A DNA stretch of 64,000 nucleotides from positions 1 to 64,000 of the forward strand of contig WGLV01000035.1 in assembly GCA_016125385.1 (NCBI GenBank). Direction: 5' to 3'. The notes beneath the pieces were generated by a model. The model was not told where the DNA came from. It did not search any database and saw only the letters and a list, made by a program, of their open reading frames with translations. The position numbers and the translations under genes are program-made. Shown piece by piece: positions 3 through 54,656 of this stretch; positions within the stretch are counted from its first letter, which is position 1, and every line of letters starts with the position of its first letter. Origin of the DNA: a bacterium. Lineage in GTDB: Bacteria > Hinthialibacterota > Hinthialibacteria > Hinthialibacterales > Hinthialibacteraceae.

Positions 3-3000
3 GCCGGAGCGAATCGGTTCCGTATTGAAACGGCGAAACCCTCGATCGATAACGTCAATCTTTCCGCTAAGGCTGACTTCGATAGAACCGGCGCCGGTGG
101 TACGGAAGGTTCGTATTACCTCGTTCGTCAGACGTTGTTTAACGGAACAACGAACGCTCTGACCACCTTGAAACCGAATGCGGTGGTTGGTTCCGGCGAT
201 ATCGTGCGGGTGACGGCTGAAATTCAGCCCAATGACCCGGTTTTCACCACGTCCGACAAATTTACCTACACGGGCGACTTCAGTCAGATTGGCTTCTCAA
301 AAACACAGGCGGCTTCCAGCAGCAGCCAGTTGCTTGGCCGTATCTATGCCACGTGGGAACTTACGGTTCCTGCGACGGTCGCCAGTGTGACTGATGCATC
401 GTTCCCGATCTCGGTTCAGGATGCGGCGAGCACTGCCGCGGGCGGCGTGACTTTGGCTCCCACGATCGGTGTGGATACCGAAGTTATTCCTTCCGGCAAC
501 TTCATCGTGAAGGTTGAGCAGTACACCGAAAGCAACAATGACAAAACCGCTAACGCGAAATCGACCGGTTTGAAAACCGCCGGCGGTATCGCGAAGGCGA
601 CTGTGGTCATTGAAGCTCGCTTCCCTGACCCATCCTTGTCATCTACGCTTTTCCCGCGTGATACGGTTGGTCGCCTGCTTGAAGAAGCTACGGAGTCCGC
701 CAATACGGAAATCGTAAGCTTCTTCGGTATCGATGGCCGTTCGATGCGTGAAAATGGCGCCAATGTGACTGGCGTAACGACTCAGACCGATCCTCCGATC
801 GTGGCTGGTGGACTTAATGGTTCGTTTACTGTCAGCCGAAGCGATGGTACCACGGGTACGTTCGCTCAAATCAACAATGGCAATGCCACCAACGGCAGCA
901 TCGCCGATTCAACCGCTTACATCATCCAGGCGACGTATGTTGACTTCCCGATCGACAAGATTTCTTCCGCGGCTTCCAAATTCGTTGTGAAGATCACGGA
1001 TACGATCGGTAACGTCTTCAGTCAGGATCTGTCTACTGTCATTCTTGATGGTACGGCTCCTCAGATCGCCATGACCGACTTGGACGTCTTGTCTGGTTCG
1101 TCTCTGGCCGCTGTGAAGGATGCGAGTGGTAACATCGTTGTTCCGACTCGTGTGAAGGGTGGCGCTCAGATGCAGGTCAAGTTCAACGTGTTCGATAACC
1201 CGTTGAACACCAATACCACTGCGTTGAACACTTCTCTGAATATCAGTGATTTCGGGCCAGCCGCGCTTCTGATTGGCAACATCACGGCCAATACTCAGAA
1301 TGCCACGGCTTCCTTCCCGGTTCTTGCGACTCTCTCCACCTTTGGTCCTACGTCGGGCGACGCAAGTGCCATTTACAACAAGTCGAAGGCGTTTAATGAC
1401 CCATCCTTCTACACCGTCAGTTCAGGCAAGGTCGCTCATGCTACCTTGACAGTGACTGACCTGGCCGGAAATGCCGGTTCCGCTGGATCCACTCAGTTGG
1501 TTGAAGTGGATAACCAGGGACCCGTCATTGTCGACTCCAAGGTGTTCATGTTGAACACGTTGGCTGAAGTTAACGCGTTGACCCCCGATTCGAGCTCGAT
1601 CAAAGAAACCGGAACCTTCGTGGATCTGGATCGCAGCGCTTACCTGGTCTTCGCCGGTACGGTTGTTGTGGATGGTTCTTCCTCCATTCACTTCCAGCCG
1701 ATCGTGACCGATGTCAAATCGAAACTTGAGATCGATAACGTCACTCGTTTCGATACCAGCTATCAGGGCTCAATCCTGATCGGCGGCGCTGATTCCGCGA
1801 CTCGCTCGCTGCGGTTTGCCACCTTCGCGATCCAGGTCGATCCGAATGCGCCTCCCGCCGCTCCTGACACGGCGACGTTCACGCTGAAGGATTACTTCGG
1901 TAACTCCTCCACGAAGACTCGCAAGGTCGCGATCGATGCGATCGGTCCTCGTGCGTCTGACATCGCCTTGAAGGTGAACGGCGTGTTGGAAACCGGTTCC
2001 AATGTTGGTACCTTGGGAATCGGCAACACCGGTCCTGATCTCGGCACGGGCGCTCTGTTTGAATTGGCTCCTGGCGACTCCATTGTGCTGCTCGCTACGG
2101 TCTCTACGTCAAACGGCGCAATCCCGTCCGATATCTATGCCGACTTCAGTTCGCTGTATCCTGGTGAACTGGCCAACACGATGAAACAGATTCTGCCGAC
2201 CAAGACGGCGATTGATGATGCGAATGACTTGGTTGTTGCGGAATGGGATTACATCGCGTTCGACACCACCAACCTTTATTCCGGTGCGCCGGGTAAAGTC
2301 TTCGCGAACAAAACCTTGATCACGAATTCCGCGAACCAGGTCGTTTCTGGTGCGACTCCGACGTCAACGTTGAACAACAACAACACAGCCTTCGTGGGCG
2401 CCGACTTTGCGGCTCCGTCTTCGGTGGCTGAAGCGACCAATGTCTTCAACAACTTGAAGGGTCTGCCTGGAATTACTGTTCAGTCTGATCCGAAGATCGC
2501 CAGTAATGTTGCTTCCTTGACGGTCACTGTTGACGTCAGTGGCGATGATTTTGGCGCGACCTTGACGCCTTCCTCGCTGTTCTCGGTCGACTCCAAGCGT
2601 CCGGTTCAGGTTGTTGATCTGCCGACGTCCTTGATCCAGCGTGCGTTGCCTGCGGCTGAAAAGAATACCACAGGTGATCGCGCCGGATTCCCGACCACTC
2701 CGTACCTGTCCACGTATCAGGGCGGTAAATCAGTGAATGATGTTCCCAACCGTCTGCGTGGCGGCGATACCGCTTCGTTCGTCTTCAGCGTGACTAACAT
2801 CACGATTGATGGAACGAAGAATGACCGCTTCCGCGTATTGCCGGGTACTGATAAGTCGAATCTGTTCAGTCTCGATACGCTGGCTGCTGATTCAAGTGTG
2901 GTCTTGGTGACTGCGAATCTCAGCGAGTTTGTGACCGGCGAAACCAGCTTGCAGTCGGGTCTGGCTTCCAGCTTCACTCACAAAGCCAGCTTGGTTCCGT

Positions 3001-6000
3001 CTGGCAGCGCCCATGTGATCTCCAGCACGTATACTGTCAAGATTTCTGACAGTTCAACCGGCTTGGGTACCACGGGTACTGGCTCACGTCGTATCCGCTT
3101 CGCTACCGCCATGGCGGTGGACGATTCCGGCAACATGCCGCTAGATGATTACTGGAGTGGATGGACCTACACCAAGCGTCCTGGCAACTCGTTGACGAAT
3201 CAGGTTCAGCGCGTTAACCACAAGCCGCTTGGCGTTGATAACCGTCCTCCCACGGTTCTCGGTGACCTGACCGTTCGTTTGAACTCGGGTTCCGCGATTA
3301 AACCGAATAACGATGCGGTTCAGATCGGTGAGCAGGTTCCCAACAATTCCAAGATCGCTCCGGGCGCCGTCCTCGGCATCTCCGCGACGATCACGGATAC
3401 GGTGGATAACCCGCTTGACATCCTGAATAACAACAACTATGGCAACCCGGCTCTGAAAGGTACCAACTTGGCCGATGCCACCATCGCTCTGACGACCAAT
3501 GGTGTTGGTCTTGTGGGTACTGACCAGATCGACGTTCCGTTCACGGTGACGATGCCTCCGGTTGGCGGCGGTATCAGCTCCAAGAACTTCAGCTTCTCGG
3601 TCTCGGCTACCGATACAGTTGGTAACTCGCAGACTGTTCCGACCTCCAACCAGTTCCAGTATGACGGTGATCCTGATCTGAAACTGCTGCAGGTTGTGAA
3701 CGGCGTCGAAACCACGGTGGGCGCTTCCACCATCGCCAACGCGAGCGCGACGACGGTTGTCTCCGCCAGCGCGTTTGACGTGGGTGGTGTTTCGCAGGTT
3801 GCGTGGGCTTGGGACGTGATTCCTGGCGTCACCGTGACCACCAACCCGGCTGGCGGTTCTGTCGCCTTCGCGACCACGGAATACGGTGGAGTTGACTTGC
3901 TGGTGATGCCTGAAGTCAACGCCAGCGCCGTTGGTTCGTTCAACGCCACGGCCACTGTCACTGACATTGGTGGTAACGCTAAATCGTTGGCGGTTACGAT
4001 TAACCTCAATCAGCCCGCCTTGCTGGCTGATGACTTCGCCGCTGCTCTGACTTCCTCGCTGCCGGAATCCCTGCCAGGCGCTACGATTACCGCCTCGGTT
4101 ACGGGTTACACTCCGAATGTGGGTGAAGACACGAGAAGCATCACCATCGTTGAAGGTCAGAAACTGGTTGTCACGGTTCCTGCCAGCGACGCGAATGGTG
4201 AAATCCCCGTCGTTACTGCTGGTGGTTCCGCAATGACCAGTACTTCCGTGAAGAGCCCGTCGTTCGTTGACAATGGCAATGGAACGGGAACCTTCACCTT
4301 CGAACCTGGTTACAAAGCGGTTGCCAGTGGTTCAACTTCAGCGGATTACGTCTTGGATCTGACCGCTTCAGATTCCAAGATTCCGGCCGACTTGGCGAAA
4401 CTGAACATCACCGTGACTCCTCAGTCCGCCACGCCGACCTTGGTTGTACAATCTGTTAAGGTTACGGATACGAACAACAATACCCGTACCGTTTCCAATC
4501 AGCAGGTTGATATGTATGAAGAAGAAACGGTTCAGATCGTTCTGAAGGCTGAAGATGAAGGTCTTGAAGCGTTGAGCTTCATTCTCAACACGCAGCCTTC
4601 AACGGCTCTGCCGGCTGGTTCAGTTGTTACCACCGGTACCAGCCCGCTGTATGCGACGATCACCTACACCCCGACCCTGCAGGATTCTGGAGTCGTCACC
4701 CTCGTCATGAGCGCGACGAACAGCAGCATCTCCACCAACCTGCAGATCCTGCTGCTCAACATCATCAACGTCAGCCAGGCGCCTGTGATTACCGCCATGG
4801 CGAGCGTCAATGGTGGTGCGGCTGCGGCGGTTGTGAGTGGTGGTACCGTCAATGCTCCTGCGGGTGCTTCCGTTAACTGGACCTTCGATGTGAACGATCC
4901 GGATAACGATCCGATCCGTATCCCGACGGCGGCTGTGAGTGGCTCGGCGGTTAAATCGTCGAACGCTCCTGGCGTTCCGTCACCGATTGATGATCATCAT
5001 TACTCCTTGGCTCTGACCGTTTCGGCCACTGATACGCCTTCGGTTGGCGCGGTGATTTCGGTTGTCGTTACCGCGACGGATACCTCTTCACCGACCAACA
5101 AGGTTCGCTCGGCTAAGTTCTACATCCAGATGCCCACCAGTGGATCGGATATCCCGGTTGCGGCTCCGTATGATGAACTGGTTCACGCTCAGGGTTACGG
5201 CGGACAGACCAACCTCGTCTATCGCAACATGGACCCGGCAGTGGATGCAAACGGCGATACCCTGTTGAATGACTTCGATAAGACGGCGATCATCCGCTCA
5301 TTTGACGCGATGAACACCGACTTCGAAGTGAATGTTGGCGGTGGTAAGAACCGTGCGGTTCACCTGTCATCTGGTGATGTCAACAACGATGGTATTGATG
5401 ACCTCATCACGACGTTTGGACCGGTTGTTTCGGCTCCGACGCCTGATGCAGCCAACATGTTCCTGGTTTACTCGTCAGCCAACTCAGTACCGAACGTTCC
5501 TGTTCCTCCGTTCGGCGGCGTGTTCCTGACAAGCCAGCCCGGTTCGATTGTGAACTACACCACTGGCGAAATGTTCTCGGCTGTTGGTAACTTCATTGGC
5601 AGCCCGACCAAACAGATCGCCTTCGTGCAAGGCTCTGGTGGTAACGGCGTCCTCCGCGTCCTGCAGTGGAATGGCAGCATGGACTTCAATAACGGTGGAA
5701 CCGCGTGGGATATCGTGGCTCAGCTCGGCAAACAGACCGACATCGATCCGGATAGCGATTTGGCTCTCAGCGGCGACGCTTGGACTCAGAACGCCAATGG
5801 TGCCGTTTCGATCGCCGCTGGCGATCTGGACGGTGACGGAATCGATGAACTGGTTGTTGGCCAGTCCCGCAGCCAGACGTCTCGCGGTACCTTCCAGGTG
5901 CTTAAACTTGGCAAGCCGAACGCCAGTGTTGCTAACGTGATTGTTGACGCCAGCTACACCACATACAACTTCTTCGATGCCTTCGGCCTCGATGCGTTGC

Positions 6001-6530
6001 GTGCGGAAGGCGGTATCAACATTGCGGTTGCTGACTTCAGTGGCGATGGCAAGGCCGAAGTTGTGATCAGCAGCCAGGGTAGTGGTACCGGCTCGACTGA
6101 CAACAGCTGGCTTGCCGTTCTTCAGCCTGTCATTACGAATGGTCAGATCACTGGCTTCACCGCCATTTCTGGAGCGATCTTCAACGCCTTCTCGCAGCCG
6201 TCCGGAGCGAATCCGAGTGGCGCGTTGCAGGTTGGCGCTGGTGAGTTCTCTGGCTTCTCAAGTGACGGCGCTGAACTGGCCATTGGTACGGGTGCGGTCG
6301 TCGATTATCAGGGCATGACCGGAACCGTGAAGAACAAAGCTCCTAAGTCGTTGTATACGGCCCTCAAGCTGAATTACACCGATAAGACAGGTGCTTCCGG
6401 TTCGATCTCGGTTTCCAACTTGGTTATCAATGACTACGCTGAAGGCTTCTCGGCCTTCCAGGGCGCCTTCGAACCGGCCAGCAGTAATGTTGCTGTCGTT
6501 GGCTTCAATGGCGTTGGTGCTCAAAACTAA
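3..6530 (+). CDS. Giant secreted Ig-like/FG-GAP repeat protein, 5' end missing
   Basis: The reading frame is open to the window edge (codons from position 3), so the first in-frame start-like codon, TTG at 135, is not a credible start and the true N-terminus lies upstream. At least 2175 residues are present. Most of the protein is Thr/Ser/Val/Asn-rich beta-sandwich sequence carrying repeated phrases of the type D-x-x-G-N followed by V-D-x-x-x-P (around nt 1040, 1460, 1900, 3120, 3620 and 3970), as in bacterial Ig-like adhesin modules. The last 400 residues hold FG-GAP/VCBS-type calcium loops of the form D-x-N/D-x-D-G-x-D (near nt 5375, 5825 and 6035), suggesting a C-terminal beta-propeller. 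It is probably a cell-surface or secreted adhesin. No anchor is visible at the C-terminus. A strong terminator follows. The substrate or partner is unknown. Confidence 0.85.
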   Translation, partial: AGANRFRIETAKPSIDNVNLSAKADFDRTGAGGTEGSYYLVRQTLFNGTTNALTTLKPNAVVGSGDIVRVTAEIQPNDPVFTTSDKFTYTGDFSQIGFSKTQAASSSSQLLGRIYATWELTVPATVASVTDASFPISVQDAASTAAGGVTLAPTIGVDTEVIPSGNFIVKVEQYTESNNDKTANAKSTGLKTAGGIAKATVVIEARFPDPSLSSTLFPRDTVGRLLEEATESANTEIVSFFGIDGRSMRENGANVTGVTTQTDPPIVAGGLNGSFTVSRSDGTTGTFAQINNGNATNGSIADSTAYIIQATYVDFPIDKISSAASKFVVKITDTIGNVFSQDLSTVILDGTAPQIAMTDLDVLSGSSLAAVKDASGNIVVPTRVKGGAQMQVKFNVFDNPLNTNTTALNTSLNISDFGPAALLIGNITANTQNATASFPVLATLSTFGPTSGDASAIYNKSKAFNDPSFYTVSSGKVAHATLTVTDLAGNAGSAGSTQLVEVDNQGPVIVDSKVFMLNTLAEVNALTPDSSSIKETGTFVDLDRSAYLVFAGTVVVDGSSSIHFQPIVTDVKSKLEIDNVTRFDTSYQGSILIGGADSATRSLRFATFAIQVDPNAPPAAPDTATFTLKDYFGNSSTKTRKVAIDAIGPRASDIALKVNGVLETGSNVGTLGIGNTGPDLGTGALFELAPGDSIVLLATVSTSNGAIPSDIYADFSSLYPGELANTMKQILPTKTAIDDANDLVVAEWDYIAFDTTNLYSGAPGKVFANKTLITNSANQVVSGATPTSTLNNNNTAFVGADFAAPSSVAEATNVFNNLKGLPGITVQSDPKIASNVASLTVTVDVSGDDFGATLTPSSLFSVDSKRPVQVVDLPTSLIQRALPAAEKNTTGDRAGFPTTPYLSTYQGGKSVNDVPNRLRGGDTASFVFSVTNITIDGTKNDRFRVLPGTDKSNLFSLDTLAADSSVVLVTANLSEFVTGETSLQSGLASSFTHKASLVPSGSAHVISSTYTVKISDSSTGLGTTGTGSRRIRFATAMAVDDSGNMPLDDYWSGWTYTKRPGNSLTNQVQRVNHKPLGVDNRPPTVLGDLTVRLNSGSAIKPNNDAVQIGEQVPNNSKIAPGAVLGISATITDTVDNPLDILNNNNYGNPALKGTNLADATIALTTNGVGLVGTDQIDVPFTVTMPPVGGGISSKNFSFSVSATDTVGNSQTVPTSNQFQYDGDPDLKLLQVVNGVETTVGASTIANASATTVVSASAFDVGGVSQVAWAWDVIPGVTVTTNPAGGSVAFATTEYGGVDLLVMPEVNASAVGSFNATATVTDIGGNAKSLAVTINLNQPALLADDFAAALTSSLPESLPGATITASVTGYTPNVGEDTRSITIVEGQKLVVTVPASDANGEIPVVTAGGSAMTSTSVKSPSFVDNGNGTGTFTFEPGYKAVASGSTSADYVLDLTASDSKIPADLAKLNITVTPQSATPTLVVQSVKVTDTNNNTRTVSNQQVDMYEEETVQIVLKAEDEGLEALSFILNTQPSTALPAGSVVTTGTSPLYATITYTPTLQDSGVVTLVMSATNSSISTNLQILLLNIINVSQAPVITAMASVNGGAAAAVVSGGTVNAPAGASVNWTFDVNDPDNDPIRIPTAAVSGSAVKSSNAPGVPSPIDDHHYSLALTVSATDTPSVGAVISVVVTATDTSSPTNKVRSAKFYIQMPTSGSDIPVAAPYDELVHAQGYGGQTNLVYRNMDPAVDANGDTLLNDFDKTAIIRSFDAMNTDFEVNVGGGKNRAVHLSSGDVNNDGIDDLITTFGPVVSAPTPDAANMFLVYSSANSVPNVPVPPFGGVFLTSQPGSIVNYTTGEMFSAVGNFIGSPTKQIAFVQGSGGNGVLRVLQWNGSMDFNNGGTAWDIVAQLGKQTDIDPDSDLALSGDAWTQNANGAVSIAAGDLDGDGIDELVVGQSRSQTSRGTFQVLKLGKPNASVANVIVDASYTTYNFFDAFGLDALRAEGGINIAVADFSGDGKAEVVISSQGSGTGSTDNSWLAVLQPVITNGQITGFTAISGAIFNAFSQPSGANPSGALQVGAGEFSGFSSDGAELAIGTGAVVDYQGMTGTVKNKAPKSLYTALKLNYTDKTGASGSISVSNLVINDYAEGFSAFQGAFEPASSNVAVVGFNGVGAQN

Positions 6531-6632: not shown

Positions 6633-9600
6633 ATGTCGTACAAACCGAGAAAATTTGTGTCGATTTTCAGATCAATAATCCCTTTCCTGACCATCATCTG
6701 TTTCGTTACCGTTGCGTTTGCCAAAGACCAGATTCCATTAAGCATCACTTTCAGTGGCGCTGGTGAAAGAATTGCGCCAGTAGGAATTGCAAAAGAGTTT
6801 GTTTTTTCGATCCCACAGAATTATGCCGGGGTCGTAAAGCGCATTGCCGTTGATGTGGATATCAGCCATCCCAATCCAGATGACTTGGAAATCGTTCTTA
6901 AGCCGCCTCAGTCGTTTTCAATTGTTCTTTTCGCGAAGGGGTATGCGCTAAAACCAGGGGCGGGGAGGGTTACGTATGACTCTTCAGTTTCTAATCGTCT
7001 TGAAAATGAATTATCGACTCTAACGGGGCGTGAGACGCTGGGTGACTGGAAGGTATTAATCAAGGATGGTGTGGAAGCAAATGAGGGGGCTTTACACTAC
7101 CTGCGTCTGTTGATTGATTATGTACCTGAAAAATCCATAGCCGGATTTAATTTGAATAATTCGGTACAGAGTTTGTCTCTTGGCGCGGATGGGTATGGTG
7201 CATTTGGCAATTTAAGCGTTCGGAACAAATATAACCTGGGTGGAATTCAACAGGTTAATGGAATCGGCTTACAGCAAGATAGCACGATCTACCAATCTTC
7301 GTTAATTGTGGATGGGATCGCGGCGTCGGCGCTGAGTTTGTTCAAGAATAATTCGCAAGATGTTTCTCCGCTGGTTCAAAAGGTCAGTAATAATAAATAC
7401 ACCAGCCAATTCTCGTTGCGCGATGTACAAGCTGATCTCATACAGGAACTGCTTCCCGAGAATGATGAATTCGTTTTCCGTCAGCAATATCATTTTTATG
7501 GATCGGGAATCGGCGCGAGCAGCTTGTTCTTTCATCGGCTGATTAACGCAAAAATGAGTTTTCCGGTCATAGACGAAACGGGAATCTATAATTACGTTTT
7601 GTCGCCTGAGTCGACTAAACAACAGGCCCCGCCGATTTATATTCTGAATCAGGTCGATTCCTACGATGCAAATACGAATTATGTAAGCGTCGATTTCATC
7701 TCAAAAACGTCTTCGCTGGGTTATGCAGTGGGTGAATGGTTTTCATTCGTTCCCGCGTTTTTTCAATTAGGGCCTGAAATCTATAAACCTTCTAAATGGA
7801 TACCCGATTGGAACGATAGTGATGGTGACGGTTTGACGGATCTGAACGCTCCGGGAGATTTCGCCATTTGCCAGGGGAGAGCGACTTTTATTTCCTCGAG
7901 CCAGCCTCTGAACATTAACTTTACCATCGAAACTCGCTGGGGCGTCGCTTCGGTTAACCAGATCAGAAGCCGCTATCAGGATCTCCCCACGCCTACGGTT
8001 ACACCACCGCCCTCCGCTCCATTTGTGGTTAAACCATTGCCTGACATTCGGTTGATTCAGGGTGAAAACGCCCAGTCAATCTTCAATCTGGATGATTATT
8101 TCGATGACCTCGATACGCCTCGAAATAATCTGCAATACTGGGTTGAATCAACTCAGAATCTTCCATTTGCGATCGATGAAAATCTTGTTGTTTCATGTGA
8201 TCTGACTGGTGATTCACCGCCACGTGAATTCGGCGATTCCGGTAAGGCGACGTTCTGGGTTACCGATGGCGTAAACAGCGTCTCGTCCAGCGTCGCGATT
8301 AAAATTTCATCGGTGCGTTTTCAGGCCATGTATGCGGGGCCGCCCGTCGGGTGGTCGCCCTCTGATAGCCAATATCAAGCCCCCATTTCTCTCAAGGCTC
8401 GTTTGAAGAATGATCCAATTCAGATGGAGAAAAACTGGTTCTGGTCGCCGTTTTCAGATTTGACGTCGATTCAGTCAACCGTTCAACCTGACAGTACAAT
8501 ACTCCTTCGCGGAATGCCGCCAGCTGGAATCCGAAAGTTGTCTTACATAGTTAAGGTCGATCACCAGGTTGAAATCCCGACGCCCACCGGCGTCCCGGCT
8601 TCGACGTCAACGCCGCTGCCATCCAGTACCCCATCGCCTCGGCCGGCGGCGACGCCAACATCGTCACCATCTCCAACCTTCACGCCAACGCGAACTCCAA
8701 CGGCTACGGCAACTCGCATCCCGACTCCCACGTATACACAGGCGCCGGCGCCCACGCGAACGCCGCTTCCAACGGTTACGCCGTCGCCCATCAACACGCT
8801 GACTCCCACTCCGCCTCGTCAGACGCCCACTCCGGCGCCAACCCCGACGATTCATGTACCTTGTACGGACCAGTTCGCGGTCCAGGTCGGCGCGCCAATA
8901 TCGGTTGATGCAGGCCCGGTATCGATCGATCCGGTTCAAATCGATGGATCGCTTGCATTGCTGGTTGGAAATTATCTGGATGGTTCAACTTCAGTCTACA
9001 GGGTAACGCAATCCGCTTTGGAGCCGATTACAACCATCGCGGGCCAGTTTGGTCTTCGTGAATCGATCGGTGCTGACGTAAATGGAGATGGACGGGTAGA
9101 CGTGATCTCGCTGAATACGGAACTTCAGACGCTGTCGGTCTCAACGGGTGGGGATTCTTTGTTTAATTCACCCGTTTCGATTTCGCTTGCTGATTACGCA
9201 TTGCCGCTTGAAAACAGCGTCTCAATTGAATCCAACATCCAGGCGTTAAGCCGTGCCGACCTCGACGGCGATGGATCGGATGAAATCATCCTCCGAATCG
9301 CGGACGGAATTCTCATTTATCGCTGGAATGGAACCACGCTTGAAACAATTCAACAGGTCCAGATCGAAGGCGAAACTCACGTCATGAGCGTCGCAGATTT
9401 CGACGGAGATGGCGATGTTGATATCGCGATCGGCGTCCGAAATCATCAAGGCGATGAATCGCTTCGCATCATGAAAAACGATGCGGGAACTTTCATGCAA
9501 TCCGTAGTCCTGCCTTTGGATGTCCGAATCAAGGGCGATTCCGCCCGCCAGATACTGATTCAGGATTGGACGAACGACGGCTTGCCCGATATCAGCGTGC

Positions 9601-9983
9601 TGACCTTCAGCGACGCGTTACAAATATTCAAAAACCGGGGATCGCTGCAATTCGAGCCGCTTGCCGCGCCGGCGCCGTTCCCGCCCGGAGTGGTCGAGTC
9701 GGTCGCCGTGTCTGACTTCAACAAAGATGGTATGCTTGATATCGCCGCGCTTCATCAGGGTCAACAGGGGTTGAGCCTGTTCCTGGCTTGCGGCGAAGGG
9801 ATGACGTTTAACGGGCTGAAAGAGATTCGGCTTTCTTCATCGGCCCCGGCGCTTGAATCGTTTATGCTCCGCGCGGTCGATCTCGATAGCGATGGCGATC
9901 TCGATCTGGTCGCGGCGCGCAGCCTTCTCGATCAACTGATCGTTATCCGCAATCTGGCTGAATCTCCGGGGACGAAACCATGA
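6633..9983 (+). CDS. Secreted P-domain / FG-GAP repeat protein
   Basis: This 1116-residue protein has a clear signal peptide (basic start, hydrophobic core, cleavage after the AFA near residue 30). Residues about 33-170 resemble the proprotein-convertase P domain (P/Homo B), with the typical 'ISHPNPDDLEIVLKPP' segment and a 'LGDWKVLIKDG' strand. A middle beta-rich region includes a cadherin/Ig-like stretch near nt 8040-8300. A Pro/Thr-rich linker of about 90 residues (nt 8575-8850) follows. The C-terminal third carries at least five FG-GAP/VCBS calcium loops (DVNGDGRVD, DLDGDGSDE, DFDGDGDVD, DFNKDGMLD, DLDSDGDLD). P domains usually accompany proteases, but no protease domain is visible. It is probably a secreted binding or adhesion protein. 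It overlaps the next gene by 4 nt, so the two are likely co-expressed. Confidence 0.85.
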   Translation: MSYKPRKFVSIFRSIIPFLTIICFVTVAFAKDQIPLSITFSGAGERIAPVGIAKEFVFSIPQNYAGVVKRIAVDVDISHPNPDDLEIVLKPPQSFSIVLFAKGYALKPGAGRVTYDSSVSNRLENELSTLTGRETLGDWKVLIKDGVEANEGALHYLRLLIDYVPEKSIAGFNLNNSVQSLSLGADGYGAFGNLSVRNKYNLGGIQQVNGIGLQQDSTIYQSSLIVDGIAASALSLFKNNSQDVSPLVQKVSNNKYTSQFSLRDVQADLIQELLPENDEFVFRQQYHFYGSGIGASSLFFHRLINAKMSFPVIDETGIYNYVLSPESTKQQAPPIYILNQVDSYDANTNYVSVDFISKTSSLGYAVGEWFSFVPAFFQLGPEIYKPSKWIPDWNDSDGDGLTDLNAPGDFAICQGRATFISSSQPLNINFTIETRWGVASVNQIRSRYQDLPTPTVTPPPSAPFVVKPLPDIRLIQGENAQSIFNLDDYFDDLDTPRNNLQYWVESTQNLPFAIDENLVVSCDLTGDSPPREFGDSGKATFWVTDGVNSVSSSVAIKISSVRFQAMYAGPPVGWSPSDSQYQAPISLKARLKNDPIQMEKNWFWSPFSDLTSIQSTVQPDSTILLRGMPPAGIRKLSYIVKVDHQVEIPTPTGVPASTSTPLPSSTPSPRPAATPTSSPSPTFTPTRTPTATATRIPTPTYTQAPAPTRTPLPTVTPSPINTLTPTPPRQTPTPAPTPTIHVPCTDQFAVQVGAPISVDAGPVSIDPVQIDGSLALLVGNYLDGSTSVYRVTQSALEPITTIAGQFGLRESIGADVNGDGRVDVISLNTELQTLSVSTGGDSLFNSPVSISLADYALPLENSVSIESNIQALSRADLDGDGSDEIILRIADGILIYRWNGTTLETIQQVQIEGETHVMSVADFDGDGDVDIAIGVRNHQGDESLRIMKNDAGTFMQSVVLPLDVRIKGDSARQILIQDWTNDGLPDISVLTFSDALQIFKNRGSLQFEPLAAPAPFPPGVVESVAVSDFNKDGMLDIAALHQGQQGLSLFLACGEGMTFNGLKEIRLSSSAPALESFMLRAVDLDSDGDLDLVAARSLLDQLIVIRNLAESPGTKP

Positions 9984-15328: not shown

Positions 15329-16954
15329 TCAATCCTCATCGAATGCTTCCGAACCCATCGCCTTGGCGTAGGCGCGATAGCGGCGGTTCATGCGCGGCCA
15401 GGCCAGTTTCTGCAAGACCACCAGAAACGCCAGCGTGACCACCATCGCGATGATCGCCACGATCTGCGTCGCGTCCAGTTCCGCCGCCGTGCCGGTACGG
15501 TACATATCCACCTGTTCATACACCCACCATCCAAGAATGGTGAACAGAAACAGCGGTGAAATATAAACTACATAACCGAAAATCTTCGGCATCGCCATGT
15601 CGGCGCCGTGTGCGGCTTCCTTGATTCCGTTCGACACTTTCAAGACGAAAATGAAGATAAAGACTTCAAACAGCGCCAGCAGCGGAATGCACAGGCTGTT
15701 CGAATACTTGTCGACGGTATCCATGGCGGTCAGGCCCGGAGACCAGATGATCGCGCTCGCGCCCAGAAACGTGATCAGCCCGAGAATCGCCACCGACGCC
15801 CGCCGGTTCAGACCAAAGCCCTCTTCCAGAAAGGCGATGACCGGTTGCAGCATCGACAGCGATGAAGTAACGCCCGCCAGAAACAGCAGAAAGAAAAACA
15901 TCGTGCCGAATACCTGCCCCATCGGCATCAGGTCGAAGATATGCGGCATGACAATGAACCCGATGCTGAAGGTGCCCGAGTTGGCCACTGATTCCATCTG
16001 CGAGACGCCCAGAAAAATCAGCGCGCTGGGGATGACCATCAACCCGCCCAGGCAGACCTCGCAAAACTCGTTCATCGAGCTCGCCGTCAGGCCGGAGAGC
16101 ACCACGTCGTCTTTTTTCGACAGATAACTCGAATAGGTGATGATGATGCCGAAGCCCACCGAGAGAGAAAAGAAAATCTGACCGCAGGCCTGCACCCAGA
16201 CTTCCGGATCCTTTAACTGCTCCCAGTGGGGGTTCCACATGTATCCCAGCCCGTTGATGACATTCTGTTCGGGCGCTTCGGGAAAGGGTGAGCCTAATGT
16301 TAAGACGCGCACCGCGATGATAATCGCCATCACCACCAGCGCGGGCATGGCGATTCGGCAGAACCATTCGATGCCTTTGCTCAGCCCGCGGTAAATCAGA
16401 TAAAAATTGAGAAAAAACGTGATCAGAAAAAAAGTGTAAGCGGGTAAGAGGCTCGAAAAAAATCGGGAGTTATACCCGGTTTCCTGAAGGGTGACGCCGA
16501 CGAATTCATTGAAAAAAGTCGAATACGCGTCGCCGCCCGCCTCGCCCAGCCTCAATTGCCCGTTAAGCATGTACCACGTGTACGCCAGACACCACGACTC
16601 GATATAGACGTAGTACATATAAATGACGAACGGGATGAACAGCCCCAGCGCGCCCATGTAGCGCAACGAGCCCCCGTTGGTCAAAACGCCGAATAGCCCC
16701 GGCGACGATGAAAGGCCCGATAACCGGCCCGCCCGGCGGCCCATGATCCACTCGATCCAGCAGATAGGGATTCCCAGCAGCAGAAACGAAATGAAATACG
16801 GAATCATGAACGCCCCGCCGCCGTTCTGAACGGCGATGCCGGGAAAACGTAAAAAATTGCCCAGACCCACCGCGCTGCCGGCGACGGCCAGAATCACGCC
16901 GATTTTCGTCCCCCAATGCTCGCGGGGCGGGTCATTTACTTGAGAAGCCGCCAT
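15329..16954 (-). CDS. Sodium-dependent transporter, NSS/SNF family
   Basis: A polytopic protein of 541 residues with about 12 membrane spans. The N-terminus carries the family signature: 'GVILAVAGSAVGLGNFLRFP' forms the Na+/substrate site of TM1, followed by 'NGGGAFMIPYF' in TM2. It probably imports an amino acid with sodium ions across the inner membrane; the substrate cannot be inferred. The ATG at 16954 is chosen over the GTG two codons upstream because it is spaced 7 nt from AGGAGG. A small membrane protein gene follows on the same strand. Confidence 0.93.
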   Translation of the reverse strand: MAASQVNDPPREHWGTKIGVILAVAGSAVGLGNFLRFPGIAVQNGGGAFMIPYFISFLLLGIPICWIEWIMGRRAGRLSGLSSSPGLFGVLTNGGSLRYMGALGLFIPFVIYMYYVYIESWCLAYTWYMLNGQLRLGEAGGDAYSTFFNEFVGVTLQETGYNSRFFSSLLPAYTFFLITFFLNFYLIYRGLSKGIEWFCRIAMPALVVMAIIIAVRVLTLGSPFPEAPEQNVINGLGYMWNPHWEQLKDPEVWVQACGQIFFSLSVGFGIIITYSSYLSKKDDVVLSGLTASSMNEFCEVCLGGLMVIPSALIFLGVSQMESVANSGTFSIGFIVMPHIFDLMPMGQVFGTMFFFLLFLAGVTSSLSMLQPVIAFLEEGFGLNRRASVAILGLITFLGASAIIWSPGLTAMDTVDKYSNSLCIPLLALFEVFIFIFVLKVSNGIKEAAHGADMAMPKIFGYVVYISPLFLFTILGWWVYEQVDMYRTGTAAELDATQIVAIIAMVVTLAFLVVLQKLAWPRMNRRYRAYAKAMGSEAFDED

Positions 16955-17182
16955 AAACACCCTCCTGTGGCTTTTCTGAGATTTACATTAGATTGCGTCA
17001 TATCGCCGGTTGGATTCACCAGTCTACCGTAATATCGCCCGGCGTGGCAAGCGTCCGCGCCTTGATGCGATGACTCAAAATTTTTATTGTTACGGTGAAC
17101 GTCCGCTTCCGGCTCCGTTCACCATCGCCTCAAAAACGATCGTTCGACGATGCAACCACCCCGAATAAAAGGACGGCGCGTT

Positions 17183-18940
17183 ATGTTTCAGTTTTCTTTC
17201 CGAACCGCTCTTGCCTGGCTGGGCGCGGCGGCGGTATTTCTTTCCGCCGCCTCATTCGCCGCGGACTCGCCTTTTCAGACGAATTCAGCGCTGACCCGGC
17301 GGCTCAAGGCGATAGAACAGGCTCACCCCCGCCAGGCCCGGCTGACCTCGCTCGCCAGAAGCAGCGAAGGCCGCGATGTCTGGCTGCTTGAACTGGGCGA
17401 AGGACCCGATGACGAACGCGCCCTGCGGCCCGCCATGCTGGTCGCGGCCGGCGTCGAGGGCGACCGCCTGATCGGAACGGAATACGCGCTCGCCTTCGCT
17501 GAAGCCATGCTCGGCAGCGCCACCGGCGCCGAACGCCTCAAAGACTCCGTCGTCTATATCGTTCCGCGTCTCAATCCCGACGCAGCCGAGCGGTATTTCC
17601 AGTCGCCTCTGCGTGAAACCCCGGCCAATCCGGCGCCGTATGACGACGACCGCGACGGCTTTACCGATGAAGACCCCGCCGATGATCTCAACGGCGACGG
17701 CTTGATCACCATGATGCGCGTCGAAGACCCCAGGGGCGGCCTGATCGCTCATCCTGACGACGATCGCGTCATGATCGAAGCCGACCCGGCTAAACACGAG
17801 TCCGCGCGCTGGACGCTGTACCCCGAGGGACGCGATGACGACGCCGACAAGCAATATAACGAAGACGGCGTTGGCGGAGTGAATTTTAACAATCAGTTCC
17901 CGTTTAACTATCCCTGGTTTGACGCTCAGGCCGGGCTGTACCCTCTCCATGAAAACGAGCCTCACGCGCTGGCCGATTTTATTCTCAACCATCCCAACAT
18001 CGCGCTTGTATTCACCTTCGGAAAAAACGATACCGTTCTTCACGCGCCGCCGTCCGGCGATCCGAGCGGACGCCGTGAACCGCAGGAAAAAGTCCGTAAC
18101 GACGATGTGAAATACTTCGATCGGCTCGGCGAACTTTACCGCGAAACGCTGGGCGCCAACGAGGCCGACTCGGCGGGAACCGTAGCCGGTTCGCTGGCTG
18201 ACTGGGTTTACTTTCATCGCGGCCGTCTCGCTCTCTGCGCGGCGGGGTGGAGCCCTGAACTGGCGCTCGCCATGAAACCGGAAGAAGACGAGCCGGCGAA
18301 AAAAGAAGAGCAGGATAAAAGCGAGTCCAGCGGCGAGTCGAAAGAAGAGAAAAAAGCCGATTCCGCCAAAGAAAAAAAATCCGATGAAAAACGCGGCGCC
18401 ACGGAAGTGAAATACCTGAAGTGGCTCAATGAACACGGCGTCGATGCGTTCACCGCCTGGACGCGAGTCGATGACCCCGACTTCCCCGGCAAGACCGTCG
18501 AGGTCGGCGGTTGGAAGCCATACGCAAACGTGACCCCGCCCGCCGATATGCTTGAATCGCTCAAACAACGCCACGCTGATTACCTGCTTGATCTCGCGGG
18601 CGACCTGCCGCGTGTTGAAATCTTCAGCGCCGAGGCTGAGCCGCTGGGCGCTGGCGTCTTCAACCTCATCGTCCGTGTTCGTAACACGGGTTATCTGCCC
18701 ACCGTTCTTCATCATGGCGAGCGAACCGATGAGATCGTCCCCACTCGCGTCGAGGTCGATCTCCCCGGCGACGCCTTCCTCGCGGGGCAAAAGGTGACCC
18801 GCCTCGGCCCCATCGACGGCGGCGAAGTGGTTGAAGCCCGCATGGTGGTGAAGGCCCGGACGGGCGCTTCAACCGGAATCCGCGTCATTTCCGCCATGGG
18901 CGGCGCCGTCGAGACCACGGTGACCTGGAAGGGAGAGTAA
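17183..18940 (+). CDS. M14 carboxypeptidase-like protein, predicted inactive
   Basis: A secreted protein of 585 residues; the signal peptide ends near 'SFAADS', which with GGACGG upstream supports ATG 17183 over one 11 codons earlier. It follows the next gene's M14 protein throughout, including the Asp-rich calcium-like insert ('DDDRDGFTDEDPADDLNGDG'). The zinc ligands are lost: the HGNE position reads E92-G-D-R95, and the third-ligand 'SYHNFG' reads 'TFGKND'. The substrate-binding Asn-Arg reads Asn-Asn, and the catalytic Glu region reads 'LALCAAGW'. A Lys/Glu-rich, probably disordered insert lies near nt 18280-18400. It looks like a pseudo-peptidase, perhaps a partner, substrate-binding or inhibitory protein for the active paralog 5 bp downstream. 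Confidence 0.85.
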   Translation: MFQFSFRTALAWLGAAAVFLSAASFAADSPFQTNSALTRRLKAIEQAHPRQARLTSLARSSEGRDVWLLELGEGPDDERALRPAMLVAAGVEGDRLIGTEYALAFAEAMLGSATGAERLKDSVVYIVPRLNPDAAERYFQSPLRETPANPAPYDDDRDGFTDEDPADDLNGDGLITMMRVEDPRGGLIAHPDDDRVMIEADPAKHESARWTLYPEGRDDDADKQYNEDGVGGVNFNNQFPFNYPWFDAQAGLYPLHENEPHALADFILNHPNIALVFTFGKNDTVLHAPPSGDPSGRREPQEKVRNDDVKYFDRLGELYRETLGANEADSAGTVAGSLADWVYFHRGRLALCAAGWSPELALAMKPEEDEPAKKEEQDKSESSGESKEEKKADSAKEKKSDEKRGATEVKYLKWLNEHGVDAFTAWTRVDDPDFPGKTVEVGGWKPYANVTPPADMLESLKQRHADYLLDLAGDLPRVEIFSAEAEPLGAGVFNLIVRVRNTGYLPTVLHHGERTDEIVPTRVEVDLPGDAFLAGQKVTRLGPIDGGEVVEARMVVKARTGASTGIRVISAMGGAVETTVTWKGE

Positions 18941-18945
18941 GACTG

Positions 18946-20697
18946 ATGAACTTCACTCGTATCCACTCGCTCCTGCTGGCGCTTTCGTTCATTCTGTTCG
19001 CCGTTTCCTCCGGATTCACGCGGGAGGAGACCGACGGGCTGTATCCCGCCCTGGGCGCGCCCGCCGAGCGCAAGGTCGATATCGCGTGGAACCGTTACCA
19101 TGACACCGAAGGCCTTGAGTCGATTCTGCGCAGCCTGCACGACGCGTTCCCCACGCTGACGCGCATCTACTCCATCGGTAAGTCGTATGAAGGCCGCGAT
19201 CTCTGGTGTCTTGAAGTCACCAATCATTCCAAAGGCGACGCGGACCGCAAACCCGCGATGTATATCGATGGCAACATCCACGGCAACGAAGTCCAGGCGG
19301 GTGAAGTGGTCGCGTATACGGCGTGGTATCTGTGTGAAAATTACGGCCGCGTCGATCAGATCACCGATCTGCTCGATAAGCGCGTCTTTTACCTGATTCC
19401 GACCATCAATCCAGATGGCCGCGACTACTGGTTTCACGCGCCCAACACCATGCACTCGTCGCGCACCGGTCATAAGCCGATCGACGAAGACCGCGACGGC
19501 CTGACTGATGAAGACCCGTTCGACGATCTCGACGGCGACGGTTCCATCACCATGATGCGCCGCCGCGACCCCAATGGCCGCTGGAAGGCCGATCCGGATT
19601 ATCCCGATTACTTCATGGATCGCGTCGACTCGGACGAACGCGGAGAGTATGAGTTGCTGGGGCCCGAGGGCATCGATAACGACGGCGACGGCCGCGTCAA
19701 TGAAGATCCGCCCGGAGGGTATGATCCCAACCGCAACTGGGCGTGGGACTGGCAGCCCGGCTACGTTCAGTACTGGTCGCGCGATTATCCCTTTTCGTTG
19801 CCTTCGATCCGCGCGGTGGCTGATTTCGTTATCGGCCATCCCAACATCGGCGCCGCTCAGTCGTATCACAACTTCGGCGGATACATCCTGCGCGGACCCA
19901 ACCGCGAGGGCGGCGAAATTCAGCCCGGCGACGAGCGCGTCATGGCCGCCATCGGCGAACGCGGCGAACGCATGTTGCCCTTTTACCGTTCGGTGGTGAG
20001 CTGGTCGGGGCTGTACCCGGTATGGGGCGGCGAAACCGACTGGTTCTATTGCGGCCGGGGAATCACCGCCTTCACCAACGAACTCTGGACATTGCGCAAC
20101 ATGTTCCGCAACGATGAAGAAAGCGAAAAAGCGCAAGGCGACTTCCTCAAATACCTGCTGCAGGAGCAGGGCCTGACCAAGTGGAAGGAATACGACCATC
20201 CCCAGTATGGAAAAATCGAAATCGGTGGAATGCGCCAGCAGTTTTACCGCACGCCTCCGTCCTTCATGCTGGAGGAGGAATGCCATCGGAATATGGCGTT
20301 CACGCTTTATCACGCCAGCCAGACGCCTCTGATCGAGTTCGGCGACGTGACGGTGGAACGCATCGGCGACAACCTGCACAAGGTCTGGGTCGAGATTCGC
20401 AACGACGGCATGATTCCCACCCGGCTCGATCAGGACGTCCGTCACCAGATCACCCGCGCCGATGAAGCGACGCTGTCCGGCGTTGGGCTTACCGTACTCA
20501 GTTCCGGCGTGGTGACCGATCCCGACTTCAAGCGCGTAACGCCGGTCGAAGCGCGGCCCGAACGCGTGTTGATCGATTCCATCGAGGGGCTGGGCGCCGC
20601 GCGGGTTCAGTTCATTGTGTCTGGTCATGGCAAGGCGCGTCTTGTGGTCGATTCCATCAAAGGCGGACGCATCGAGCGCGACGTGAATCTTCCCTGA
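18946..20697 (+). CDS. Secreted zinc carboxypeptidase, M14 family (active-type)
   Basis: A 583-residue exported metallopeptidase. A signal peptide occupies residues 1-25. Catalytic residues are complete: zinc ligands His112 and Glu115 in 'NIHGNEVQAGE', His308 in 'QSYHNFGG', substrate Arg263 in 'PNRNW', and general base Glu379 in 'FTNELW'. Between them lie two Asp-rich loops (about residues 180-200 and 243-254) that may bind calcium. A beta-rich C-terminal domain follows from about residue 470. It probably trims C-terminal residues from peptides outside the inner membrane. The start lies 5 nt after the stop of the inactive paralog, with GGGAGAG as ribosome-binding site, so the two are co-translated. 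Confidence 0.93.
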   Translation: MNFTRIHSLLLALSFILFAVSSGFTREETDGLYPALGAPAERKVDIAWNRYHDTEGLESILRSLHDAFPTLTRIYSIGKSYEGRDLWCLEVTNHSKGDADRKPAMYIDGNIHGNEVQAGEVVAYTAWYLCENYGRVDQITDLLDKRVFYLIPTINPDGRDYWFHAPNTMHSSRTGHKPIDEDRDGLTDEDPFDDLDGDGSITMMRRRDPNGRWKADPDYPDYFMDRVDSDERGEYELLGPEGIDNDGDGRVNEDPPGGYDPNRNWAWDWQPGYVQYWSRDYPFSLPSIRAVADFVIGHPNIGAAQSYHNFGGYILRGPNREGGEIQPGDERVMAAIGERGERMLPFYRSVVSWSGLYPVWGGETDWFYCGRGITAFTNELWTLRNMFRNDEESEKAQGDFLKYLLQEQGLTKWKEYDHPQYGKIEIGGMRQQFYRTPPSFMLEEECHRNMAFTLYHASQTPLIEFGDVTVERIGDNLHKVWVEIRNDGMIPTRLDQDVRHQITRADEATLSGVGLTVLSSGVVTDPDFKRVTPVEARPERVLIDSIEGLGAARVQFIVSGHGKARLVVDSIKGGRIERDVNLP

Positions 20698-20793: not shown

Positions 20794-21873
20794 ATGAACG
20801 CGCGTGCTTTATTCATGGTTTTCGCATGTTGTGCGATGGTGTTGTTAACCGCCGGGCGCGGCGCTCGCGCCCAGTCGAGCGATGATTATATTCGCGGTTA
20901 CGTGAACGCGCTGCTGTCCGCCGTTTATCACACGTCCGAGGCGTCGGTTCAGGTGTCGGATGGAAACGTGATCGTCTTCGGCATGCCCGGCGGAGACATC
21001 GGCCGTGAAGACCTGCGCCGCGCCGTATCGGGAATTGAAGGCGTAAAATCGATCGGCTTCCATGACGCCCGCTCCACGGATGAGACGGGCTGGCGCCGCG
21101 AGATCGACGAATCCACTGAAGGCCTGTTCCCCAAGGGAGACCTGTTCGAGCCGTTCATCGCCGACCCGTATCAGTCTCAGTTCGGGCTGGGCTACCGTCT
21201 GCAGGAACATTTTGACGCCACCGGCGTGGCTGAGTTCGGCGAGGTGCTGCCGGTATACCGCTGGACCGATCTGTTCGGCCCCGGCCACACGCTCCAGATG
21301 AATCTGGAGGGCGCGGTATGGGGCTATTTCAATATGGAAGACGGCGGCCATCTCGATAACGCCGACTTTCAGGTGGGGATCCCCTTTGTATATCGTTTTG
21401 ACGATTTCGCTCTGCGCGTCCGCTATATGCACCGCAGCGGTCATCTGGGCGATGACTACATCGCCGACAACAACCTGACGGGCGCCTCGGCCGTCAATCG
21501 CCAGCTCGATCAGAACTCCCTCGACCTCGTCGCGTCCTATGGCCCCGGCTGGTGGCGTGTTTATGGCGGCGGAGCGTATTATTTCGACGATCTGAACGAT
21601 CGCGCGCCGCTTGAACTGATCCTCGGCGGCGAATACCGCCCCTGGGCCGATCTCTCCATCCACCCCGTCTTCGCCGTCCATCTGACCTCGGCCGAAGAAA
21701 CCGAATGGACCGTCGCCCAGCGCTATATGGCGGGCGTCGAGTTCACCGACTATCCGTTCCGCCGCACCACCCTGCGCCTGATGCTGGAGTATTACACCGG
21801 CCCGCGCCTCTCCTTCCCCGTCTATCATGAGGACGGCGACTACTTCGGCCTCGGCCTCTATCTCGACCTGTGA
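20794..21873 (+). CDS. Outer-membrane protein, BON-like N-terminus plus DUF1207-like barrel
   Basis: The 359-residue precursor has a signal peptide (cleavage after ARA near residue 26). Residues about 30-90 look like a small BON-type alpha/beta domain ('SVQVSDGNVIVFGMPGG', then 'EDLRRAVSGIEGVKSIGF'). The rest opens with 'LFPKGDLFEPFIADPYQSQF', characteristic of DUF1207, and continues as alternating aromatic beta strands ending in 'YFGLGLYLDL', typical of an outer-membrane barrel with a hydrophobic terminus. Function is unknown. It follows the M14 pair by 96 bp on the same strand and may be part of that transcript. Confidence 0.75.
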   Translation: MNARALFMVFACCAMVLLTAGRGARAQSSDDYIRGYVNALLSAVYHTSEASVQVSDGNVIVFGMPGGDIGREDLRRAVSGIEGVKSIGFHDARSTDETGWRREIDESTEGLFPKGDLFEPFIADPYQSQFGLGYRLQEHFDATGVAEFGEVLPVYRWTDLFGPGHTLQMNLEGAVWGYFNMEDGGHLDNADFQVGIPFVYRFDDFALRVRYMHRSGHLGDDYIADNNLTGASAVNRQLDQNSLDLVASYGPGWWRVYGGGAYYFDDLNDRAPLELILGGEYRPWADLSIHPVFAVHLTSAEETEWTVAQRYMAGVEFTDYPFRRTTLRLMLEYYTGPRLSFPVYHEDGDYFGLGLYLDL

Positions 21874-28322: not shown

Positions 28323-28423
28323 TTTTTTTGAGATGATTCACATCACGCGGCATGACGGAGCGCAACGCCGCCTCATCGAAACTCCGTCGCGCCGATTATG
28401 GGATAACCCGGGGAGGTGGTGGA

Positions 28424-29572
28424 ATGAACTCGATCAAGACTCTCGTCCTGACGCTCGTCTGTTGCGCGGTTTTGATTCCAGACGCGCCGGGGCGGGATGC
28501 GCCTTCACCGATCGATCTCTCCCCGTTTCGCGATGGAATCCACCACTGGCGCATGAAATACGGCCGCGACCGCAACGACGCTCTCTATGATGAAGGCGAC
28601 GTGATCTCGATCGCGAACAACATGCTTCGCTTTCAATGCGCCGACGGCGGCTGGCCGAAAAACATCGACTGGCTGGTTGACCTGGCGCCGGACGAAGTTC
28701 GGCGTATCACCGGTTCATCCCTCTCCAGCACCTTTGATAACCGCAATACCTATTCCCAGATCGAATACCTGTCGAAAGCGTACGCCGAAACGGGAGATGA
28801 ACGGTATCGCGACTCGGCGGAAAGCGGGCTTGAGTACATTCTGCGCGAACAGCGCGACAGCGGAGGATGGCGCGGCAGCGACGTCGACGCGATTACCTTC
28901 AACGACGACGTGATGGCGGGAATCATGAACCTGCTGCTCGATATCCGTCAGGGCGCGGAATTCTATGACTGGGTAAACGATGAGTTGAGATCGAAACTGG
29001 ATGACGCCTTGAACCGCGCGATCGATGCGACGCTTCGCTGTCAGATCGTATCCGGCGGCGTCAAAACCGCCTGGTGTCAGCAACATGACCATGCGTCGTA
29101 TCAACCGGTGAAGGCGCGCACGTTTGAGCTTGCCGCGATCACCGCGGGAGAAAGCGTGGGGGTTGCCCGGTTTCTGATGCGGTTGAAGAATCCTTCGCCG
29201 GAGGTCATTGAGGCGGTTGAATGCGCGGCGGCGTGGTTTGAACGGTCAAAGATCGAAGGCGTCCGCGTTAAAGACGTCCCCATTGATCCAGTCCGTTTCG
29301 AACATCACACCGCCACGTTCAACCGGGTTGTTGTTGATGACCCATCCGCGCCGCCGGTCTGGGCGCGGTATTACGAGATCGAAACCAACCGCCCGTTTTT
29401 CTGTAATCGCGACGGGATCAAAGTGTATCGCCTGGCTGACGTCGATCTGGAACGGCGCACCGGGTACGCGTGGTATGGAACCTGGCCCGCCGCCTTGCTC
29501 AAACGCGACTTCCCTAAATGGAAACAGGCCATCCAGCGTTCGCGGGACGGCCTGTCGAATGAGTCGGGTTGA
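28424..29572 (+). CDS. Pectate lyase, polysaccharide lyase family 10
   Basis: The 382-residue protein follows PL10 motifs: 'GGWPKNIDW', 'STFDNRNTYSQIEYLSKAY', 'TAWCQQHD', 'WARYYEIETNRPFFCNRDG' and 'RRTGYAWYGTWP'. These enzymes cut polygalacturonate by beta-elimination with calcium. A hydrophobic N-terminus (residues 4-18, including Cys-Cys) suggests export. The start is set at ATG 28424, preceded by GGGAGGTGG, not at the upstream ATG 28352. No other pectin-utilisation gene is in the window. It ends 6 bp from the converging flagellar operon. Confidence 0.9.
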   Translation: MNSIKTLVLTLVCCAVLIPDAPGRDAPSPIDLSPFRDGIHHWRMKYGRDRNDALYDEGDVISIANNMLRFQCADGGWPKNIDWLVDLAPDEVRRITGSSLSSTFDNRNTYSQIEYLSKAYAETGDERYRDSAESGLEYILREQRDSGGWRGSDVDAITFNDDVMAGIMNLLLDIRQGAEFYDWVNDELRSKLDDALNRAIDATLRCQIVSGGVKTAWCQQHDHASYQPVKARTFELAAITAGESVGVARFLMRLKNPSPEVIEAVECAAAWFERSKIEGVRVKDVPIDPVRFEHHTATFNRVVVDDPSAPPVWARYYEIETNRPFFCNRDGIKVYRLADVDLERRTGYAWYGTWPAALLKRDFPKWKQAIQRSRDGLSNESG

Positions 29573-52638: not shown

Positions 52639-52800
52639 TCGGCCGCCTGTTTTGGTTTCATCGCAAGCGGCGGCCCCATTCAGGATGAAATCGCTCCGCG
52701 ACTGAAATAAAACTCCAAAAAAAAACACCGGACAAAATATTTATCCCACGATAGATTAACAGAGCAATCAATCACTTCCATAATGGGGGGAACCATCAGA

Positions 52801-54530: not shown

Positions 54531-54656
54531 GTTTACAGGCACGGGCGGAGCCAGAGTCAGAAATGACAAAATTTTACAAGTTTCCAGAGTCAAATACGGT
54601 CAGGCATGATATGGTATAAAAAGTCTGAAGTCTCGGATTCAAAAGGGGGAATCGGG

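Follow-up and report, generated by a model that had tools for sequence, protein, structure and literature searches.

A tandem of an intact M14 carboxypeptidase gene and a catalytically dead paralogue gene, conserved in several bacterial phyla

In the M16B family of metallopeptidases, neighbouring bacterial genes encode an active and an inactive member, as in SPH2681/SPH2682 and TTHA1264/TTHA1265, and the two products form heterodimers (PMC12731061). The M16B tandems and the alpha and beta subunits of the mitochondrial processing peptidase each combine a zinc-active protein with a dead paralogue of the same family, the M16B genes lying in tandem (PMC12731061, PMC11266112), and the pair described here has the same composition. 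However, the M16B proteins are endopeptidases with the M16 fold and their heterodimer is shown by experiment, whereas the present pair belongs to M14 and its heterodimer is a prediction. Peptidase_M14 is its sole Pfam match, and the comparison with M16 is one of analogy.

Within M14, carboxypeptidase D resembles the pair in that its domain III, itself dead, is situated beside active M14 domains (PMC11266112). However, carboxypeptidase D is one eukaryotic polypeptide without Asp-rich or charged inserts, whereas the pair consists of separate bacterial genes. AEBP1, CPXM1, CPXM2 and yeast Ecm14, like the dead protein of the pair, belong to M14, are secreted and have lost residues of the active site (PMC11266112, PMC7706225). 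Unlike that protein, all four are eukaryotic, each retains several zinc or clamp residues, and none has a co-encoded active sibling. Carboxypeptidase T and the D/N/M group possess the same zinc and catalytic residues as the active protein and also give the dead protein its best fold matches; we know of no separately encoded dead partner and no such Asp-rich inserts in any of them. The M14 pseudoenzymes described in the accessible open-access literature are eukaryotic, and the available part of a review of metallopeptidase pseudoenzymes names no bacterial one, a silence that is not proof. The active/dead tandem is known in M16; as separate bacterial M14 genes, it appears new.

The gene pair and its surroundings

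The window, that is, the whole stretch of 64,000 nucleotides analysed, contains two M14 genes on the same strand, separated by 5 bp between the stop codon of the dead gene and the start codon of the active gene, and their coordinates agree with the two adjacent M14 reading frames of the preliminary description.

17150, + strand: alternative in-frame ATG of the dead gene
17183..18940, + strand: dead M14 paralogue, 585 aa, by Pfam match and alignment, with a signal-peptide-like N-terminus read by eye
18930..18937, + strand: AGGGAGAG, likely ribosome-binding site of the active gene, judged from the sequence, within the 3' end of the dead gene
18946..20697, + strand: intact M14 zinc carboxypeptidase, 583 aa, by Pfam and PDB matches, with a signal-peptide-like N-terminus read by eye

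Peptidase_M14 is matched by both proteins (4.1e-21 for the dead, 6.8e-44 for the active), which share 28% identity across 534 columns, and a whole-genome search found no further M14 matches in the host beyond the pair. The active protein has PDB carboxypeptidase matches down to 4.7e-19, and its best matches of solved structure, carboxypeptidases D and T, carry identical zinc and catalytic residues. The N-termini suggest that both proteins are exported. The position of AGGGAGAG is a good one for the ribosome-binding site of the active gene, and the translation of the two genes is probably coupled. A promoter and terminator scan gave no signal exceeding that of shuffled sequences.

Directly downstream of the pair lies a gene for a DUF1207 protein (20794-21873, 1.2e-38), a homologue of which is also located downstream in genome G003. 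Elsewhere in the window, two adjacent WD40-repeat proteins of about 560 residues (52783-54468 and 54606-56294) constitute another tandem pair of paralogues, and two large FG-GAP-repeat proteins (135-6530 and 6633-9983) occur, of which the one at 6633-9983 also contains a proprotein convertase P-domain. A pectic acid lyase (Pec_lyase, 5.4e-83) at 28352-29572 suggests plant-polymer degradation by the uncultured host lineage.

Active sites and fold of the two proteins

The residues at the active-site positions of the two proteins, placed by alignment, are the following.

17456..17467, + strand: zinc motif H-G-N-E degenerated to E92-G-D-R95, dead protein
17888..17893, + strand: Asn236-Asn237 at the Asn144-Arg145 clamp, Asn retained and Arg gone, dead protein
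18020..18022, + strand: Gly280 at the position of the third zinc-ligand His, dead protein
18242..18244, + strand: Ala354 at the position of the catalytic Glu, dead protein
19279..19290, + strand: zinc motif His112-G-N-Glu115, active protein
19729..19734, + strand: Asn262-Arg263, C-terminus clamp (Asn144-Arg145 equivalents), active protein
19867..19869, + strand: His308, third zinc ligand, active protein
20014..20016, + strand: Tyr357, likely Tyr248 equivalent, active protein; Tyr in 89 active rows, lost in dead rows
20080..20082, + strand: Glu379, catalytic Glu (Glu270 equivalent), active protein

The equivalents of His69, Glu72, His196 and Glu270 are all present in the second protein as His112, Glu115, His308 and Glu379, so that by residue pattern it is an intact carboxypeptidase, for which catalysis is predicted. 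These residues and Arg263 had already been assigned to it; the alignment agrees and adds Asn262 and Tyr357, which we take, from its alignment to the CPA motif, to be the Tyr248 equivalent. In the first protein, the same four sites are occupied by Glu92, Arg95, Gly280 and Ala354, so that this protein has lost both zinc His residues, the Glu of the zinc site and that of catalysis, and also its counterparts of Arg145 and Tyr248. The earlier claim that its residues are replaced at every aligned position therefore has one exception: the Asn144 equivalent is retained as Asn236, whereas the claim stands at the zinc-ligand, catalytic Glu and Arg positions.

The dead protein contains three inserts.

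17642..17701, + strand: first Asp-rich insert, residues 154-173, of calcium-binding type by sequence, common to the active protein
17825..17866, + strand: second Asp-rich insert, residues 215-228, by alignment
18266..18391, + strand: charged, probably disordered insert, by alignment; pLDDT below 50 there

Modelled with AlphaFold2 (pLDDT 76, pTM 0.80), the dead protein has carboxypeptidases D, N, T and A as its PDB fold matches, the best being 3mn8 (E 5.7e-13), which indicates that the M14 fold is retained, as had been proposed; the model of the active protein, with a pLDDT of 55, is too poor to use. Two Asp-rich inserts are common to both proteins, also as described before, and they may bind calcium; the columns of the first insert are conserved to at least 80% in either set. 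The charged insert follows directly after the former catalytic strand and is common to the dead clade, with a median length of 60 residues versus 7 in the active proteins, and the low model confidence points to probable disorder. With M14 homology, an M14 fold and lost catalytic residues, the first protein is an M14 pseudopeptidase.

The pattern of lost residues extends to the relatives, as counted over 100 rows of dead and 101 of active proteins. All 101 active rows have the His and Glu of the zinc motif, and each active row that covers the other two sites has the catalytic Glu and the third zinc His. Each dead row retains at most one of the four key residues (0/100 have more). The first zinc His is replaced by Glu or Asp in 90/100 dead proteins, indicating that the pocket has been remodelled rather than randomly lost; the zinc-Glu position is His or Asp in 69/100; the third His position is Gly in 70/100 and Gly, Ser, Cys or Ala in 95/100; and position 311 carries a new Asp in 84/100, versus Gly in the active set. 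With the same pattern in 100 dead homologues of several phyla, chance loss of the residues is ruled out. The clamp is more variable, the Arg145 equivalent being kept in 61 and lost in 39 of the 100 dead proteins and the Asn kept in 67/100, and within the own family of the window's dead protein the Arg145-equivalent position varies as N/K/A/R/N, with Asn in the window protein itself. The Tyr248 equivalent is lost across the dead clade. No alternative zinc site is evident among the 100 dead rows, where no other set of ligands is conserved throughout, and the possibility that the dead protein carries its zinc ligands at other places is rejected, with Gly, Ser, Cys or Ala filling the third-ligand site in 95/100.

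Position 205 (numbering of the window's active protein) keeps its Arg in 97/100 dead proteins but is Trp in 39/101 active ones, the reverse of what is expected of a dead copy; the active proteins with Trp205 are those of most Phycisphaerae (e.g. L071, L086 and L105).

Conservation of the pair and the proposed role of the dead protein

The dead clade occurs in Planctomycetota, in Verrucomicrobia, in MAGs labelled Omnitrophota/Sumerlaeota and in one further phylum, and when bacterial and archaeal genomes were scanned with the dead family, its homologues in MAGs labelled Planctomycetota, Verrucomicrobia, Omnitrophota and Sumerlaeota were 35-51% identical and mostly full length. Both proteins are found in 5 of 14 genomes of the host's own phylum, with none carrying just one, and both genes are present in 21/21 genomes reached by the dead-family scan. 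Among 298 Phycisphaerae genomes, evenly drawn from this planctomycete class, 51 encode both proteins, the other 247 neither and none a single one (Fisher p ~1e-58, calculated over species that are not independent). Of the 34 matching genomes in the further phylum, 30 contain both, two the dead protein alone, one the main active protein alone and one a lone divergent active relative; the three MAGs with a single gene (two dead, one active) are incomplete assemblies. Lone, divergent active relatives also occur in three Verrucomicrobia genomes, so that the active fold can exist without the partner outside the paired clade. The paired genes are mostly single copies. Scans of viral contigs revealed no viral carriers.

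The arrangement of the genes is equally conserved. The active gene comes next in nearly all loci of the dead-family scan with enough downstream contig, the exception being G006, and in Phycisphaerae the genes are adjacent, dead gene first, in 50/51 genomes, the exception being G281; in both exceptions the two genes are unlinked. Across 83 same-strand pairs of the main type, with start codons picked by a simple rule, at most 63 bp separate the genes in 78, and a 4-bp stop/start overlap exists in 36. In three further pairs, 2.1-3.8 kb lie between the dead and the active gene; these gaps (L132 3134-5370, L133 4240-7987 and L134 3479-5612) all belong to one phylum. No fused dead-active gene was present among the fetched loci. 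Thus, the order, the tight spacing and the near one-to-one co-occurrence show the pairing to be conserved among relatives, together with the lost residues in the dead homologues of several phyla, which is what the preliminary description had asked of an alignment of homologous pairs. As in M16B, an active and a dead paralogue are encoded next to each other and conserved as a pair.

In the first tree (69 dead, 68 active and 7 outgroup rows), the dead proteins form one group and the active proteins another, and in a careful tree the main dead clade has a support of 100/99. Four genomes carry a second, divergent pair type, again with one intact and one dead member, in which the active-like gene comes first where both genes share a contig, the reverse of the main order. 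Its loci are L131, L139 and L143, each on one contig, and L137 and L138 of G675 on separate contigs. The dead member of this type branches separately, but a tree that unites all dead proteins in one clade is not rejected (p-AU 0.42). One or two inactivations are possible for the dead proteins on these sequences, and the second pair type may be an independent origin of the active/dead pairing.

The dead gene is under purifying selection. Its dN/dS is ~0.10-0.37 in close relatives and that of the active gene is mostly lower, values that are rough because the open frames take in some upstream sequence. A decaying duplicate without function, suggested by the faster evolution of the dead protein (49-54% versus 63-68% identity within the family of the window pair), is scarcely credible and is rejected on intact frames in ~100 homologues, dN/dS well below 1, conserved replacements and the spread over several phyla, against the earlier caution that relatives might hold only a decaying copy. 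The long retention of the dead gene beside its active sibling in ~100 distantly related genomes suggests a lasting job, likeliest as the partner of the enzyme.

We hold with moderate confidence that the pair constitutes a secreted system of an active M14 zinc carboxypeptidase and a dedicated dead paralogue serving as its non-catalytic subunit. The tight pairing, the mostly single copies, the probable translational coupling and the fold kept without catalysis point to such a dedicated partner, and a heteromeric complex is the best inference. The dead protein, encoded first and probably coupled in translation to the active protein, would fold as an M14 domain and bind the active subunit, which it may stabilise, or it may shape which peptide ends enter the active site. 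The released amino acids would perhaps be imported by a sodium-coupled symporter encoded next door.

15329..16960, - strand: sodium:neurotransmitter symporter (SNF) family gene, divergently transcribed, Pfam SNF 3.1e-56

Three relatives have an SNF homologue in the vicinity of the pair or of the active gene. In two planctomycetes (L055 9132-10505 and L056 13439-14890), the pair is directly followed by a gene for a sodium:dicarboxylate symporter (SDF), of another transporter family than the window's SNF. Sodium-coupled symporters beside the pair in several genomes loosely fit peptide scavenging. Of this system, the physical complex, the export, the substrate and the uptake role are inferred. 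Operon neighbours need not bind each other, which counts against reading the pair as a complex, as do the unlinked genes of G006 and G281, the three wide gaps, the MAGs with a single gene, the lone active relatives and the lack of a fused gene. The mirror-tree correlation (r = 0.89, 66 pairs) is expected from shared inheritance alone and provides no evidence of interaction. A bolder form of the proposal is tentative, with the balance tilted against it: an undescribed, widespread two-subunit carboxypeptidase that is an obligate M14 heteromer, in which the zinc pocket of the pseudo-subunit has been rebuilt as a conserved non-zinc site and the pairing has maybe arisen twice.

Alternatively, the dead domain may bind peptide or protein C-termini independently, for capture, surface retention or signalling, with no stable complex. 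The clamp Asn and Arg are kept in many dead proteins, the motifs lining the cleft still rank with the most conserved positions, and carboxypeptidase D has in its domain III a dead domain that binds other proteins (PMC11266112). However, the Arg is missing from the window protein and from more than a third of its homologues (39/100), and the Tyr248 equivalent is gone from the clade, which also weakens substrate capture by the old C-terminus clamp as a form of the capturing subunit suggested at first. Furthermore, the near-perfect one-to-one pairing exceeds the needs of a loose functional link, and we regard independent binding as unlikely.

A trans-acting chaperone or inhibitor, which helps the active enzyme to fold or to be exported, or keeps it inactive, in replacement of an A/B-type propeptide, would agree with the dead gene being translated first and coupled, and with the short stretch between the signal peptide and the M14 domain of the active protein, where no obvious propeptide domain exists. 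Many A/B-type carboxypeptidases have a propeptide, but the D/E/N type manage without one; the dead protein has no resemblance to known inhibitors, and neither a whole M14 fold nor a C-terminal domain is required of an inhibitor. Such a role is decidedly unlikely.

A new catalytic or metal-dependent activity in the rebuilt pocket is improbable: the replacements at the two zinc-motif positions, Asp311 and Arg205 are conserved, but no new ligand set is common to the clade, and the window protein has Arg at the zinc-Glu position and Gly at that of the third ligand.

Routine annotation would call the pair two ordinary carboxypeptidases; the reading favoured here, a non-catalytic subunit beside its enzyme, marks a two-gene secreted module. 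If true, the pair would be a bacterial counterpart of the M14 pseudoenzymes in which the dead partner is its own gene beside the active sibling, in several phyla, and it would offer ~100 natural pairs for testing the control of a live peptidase domain by a dead one.
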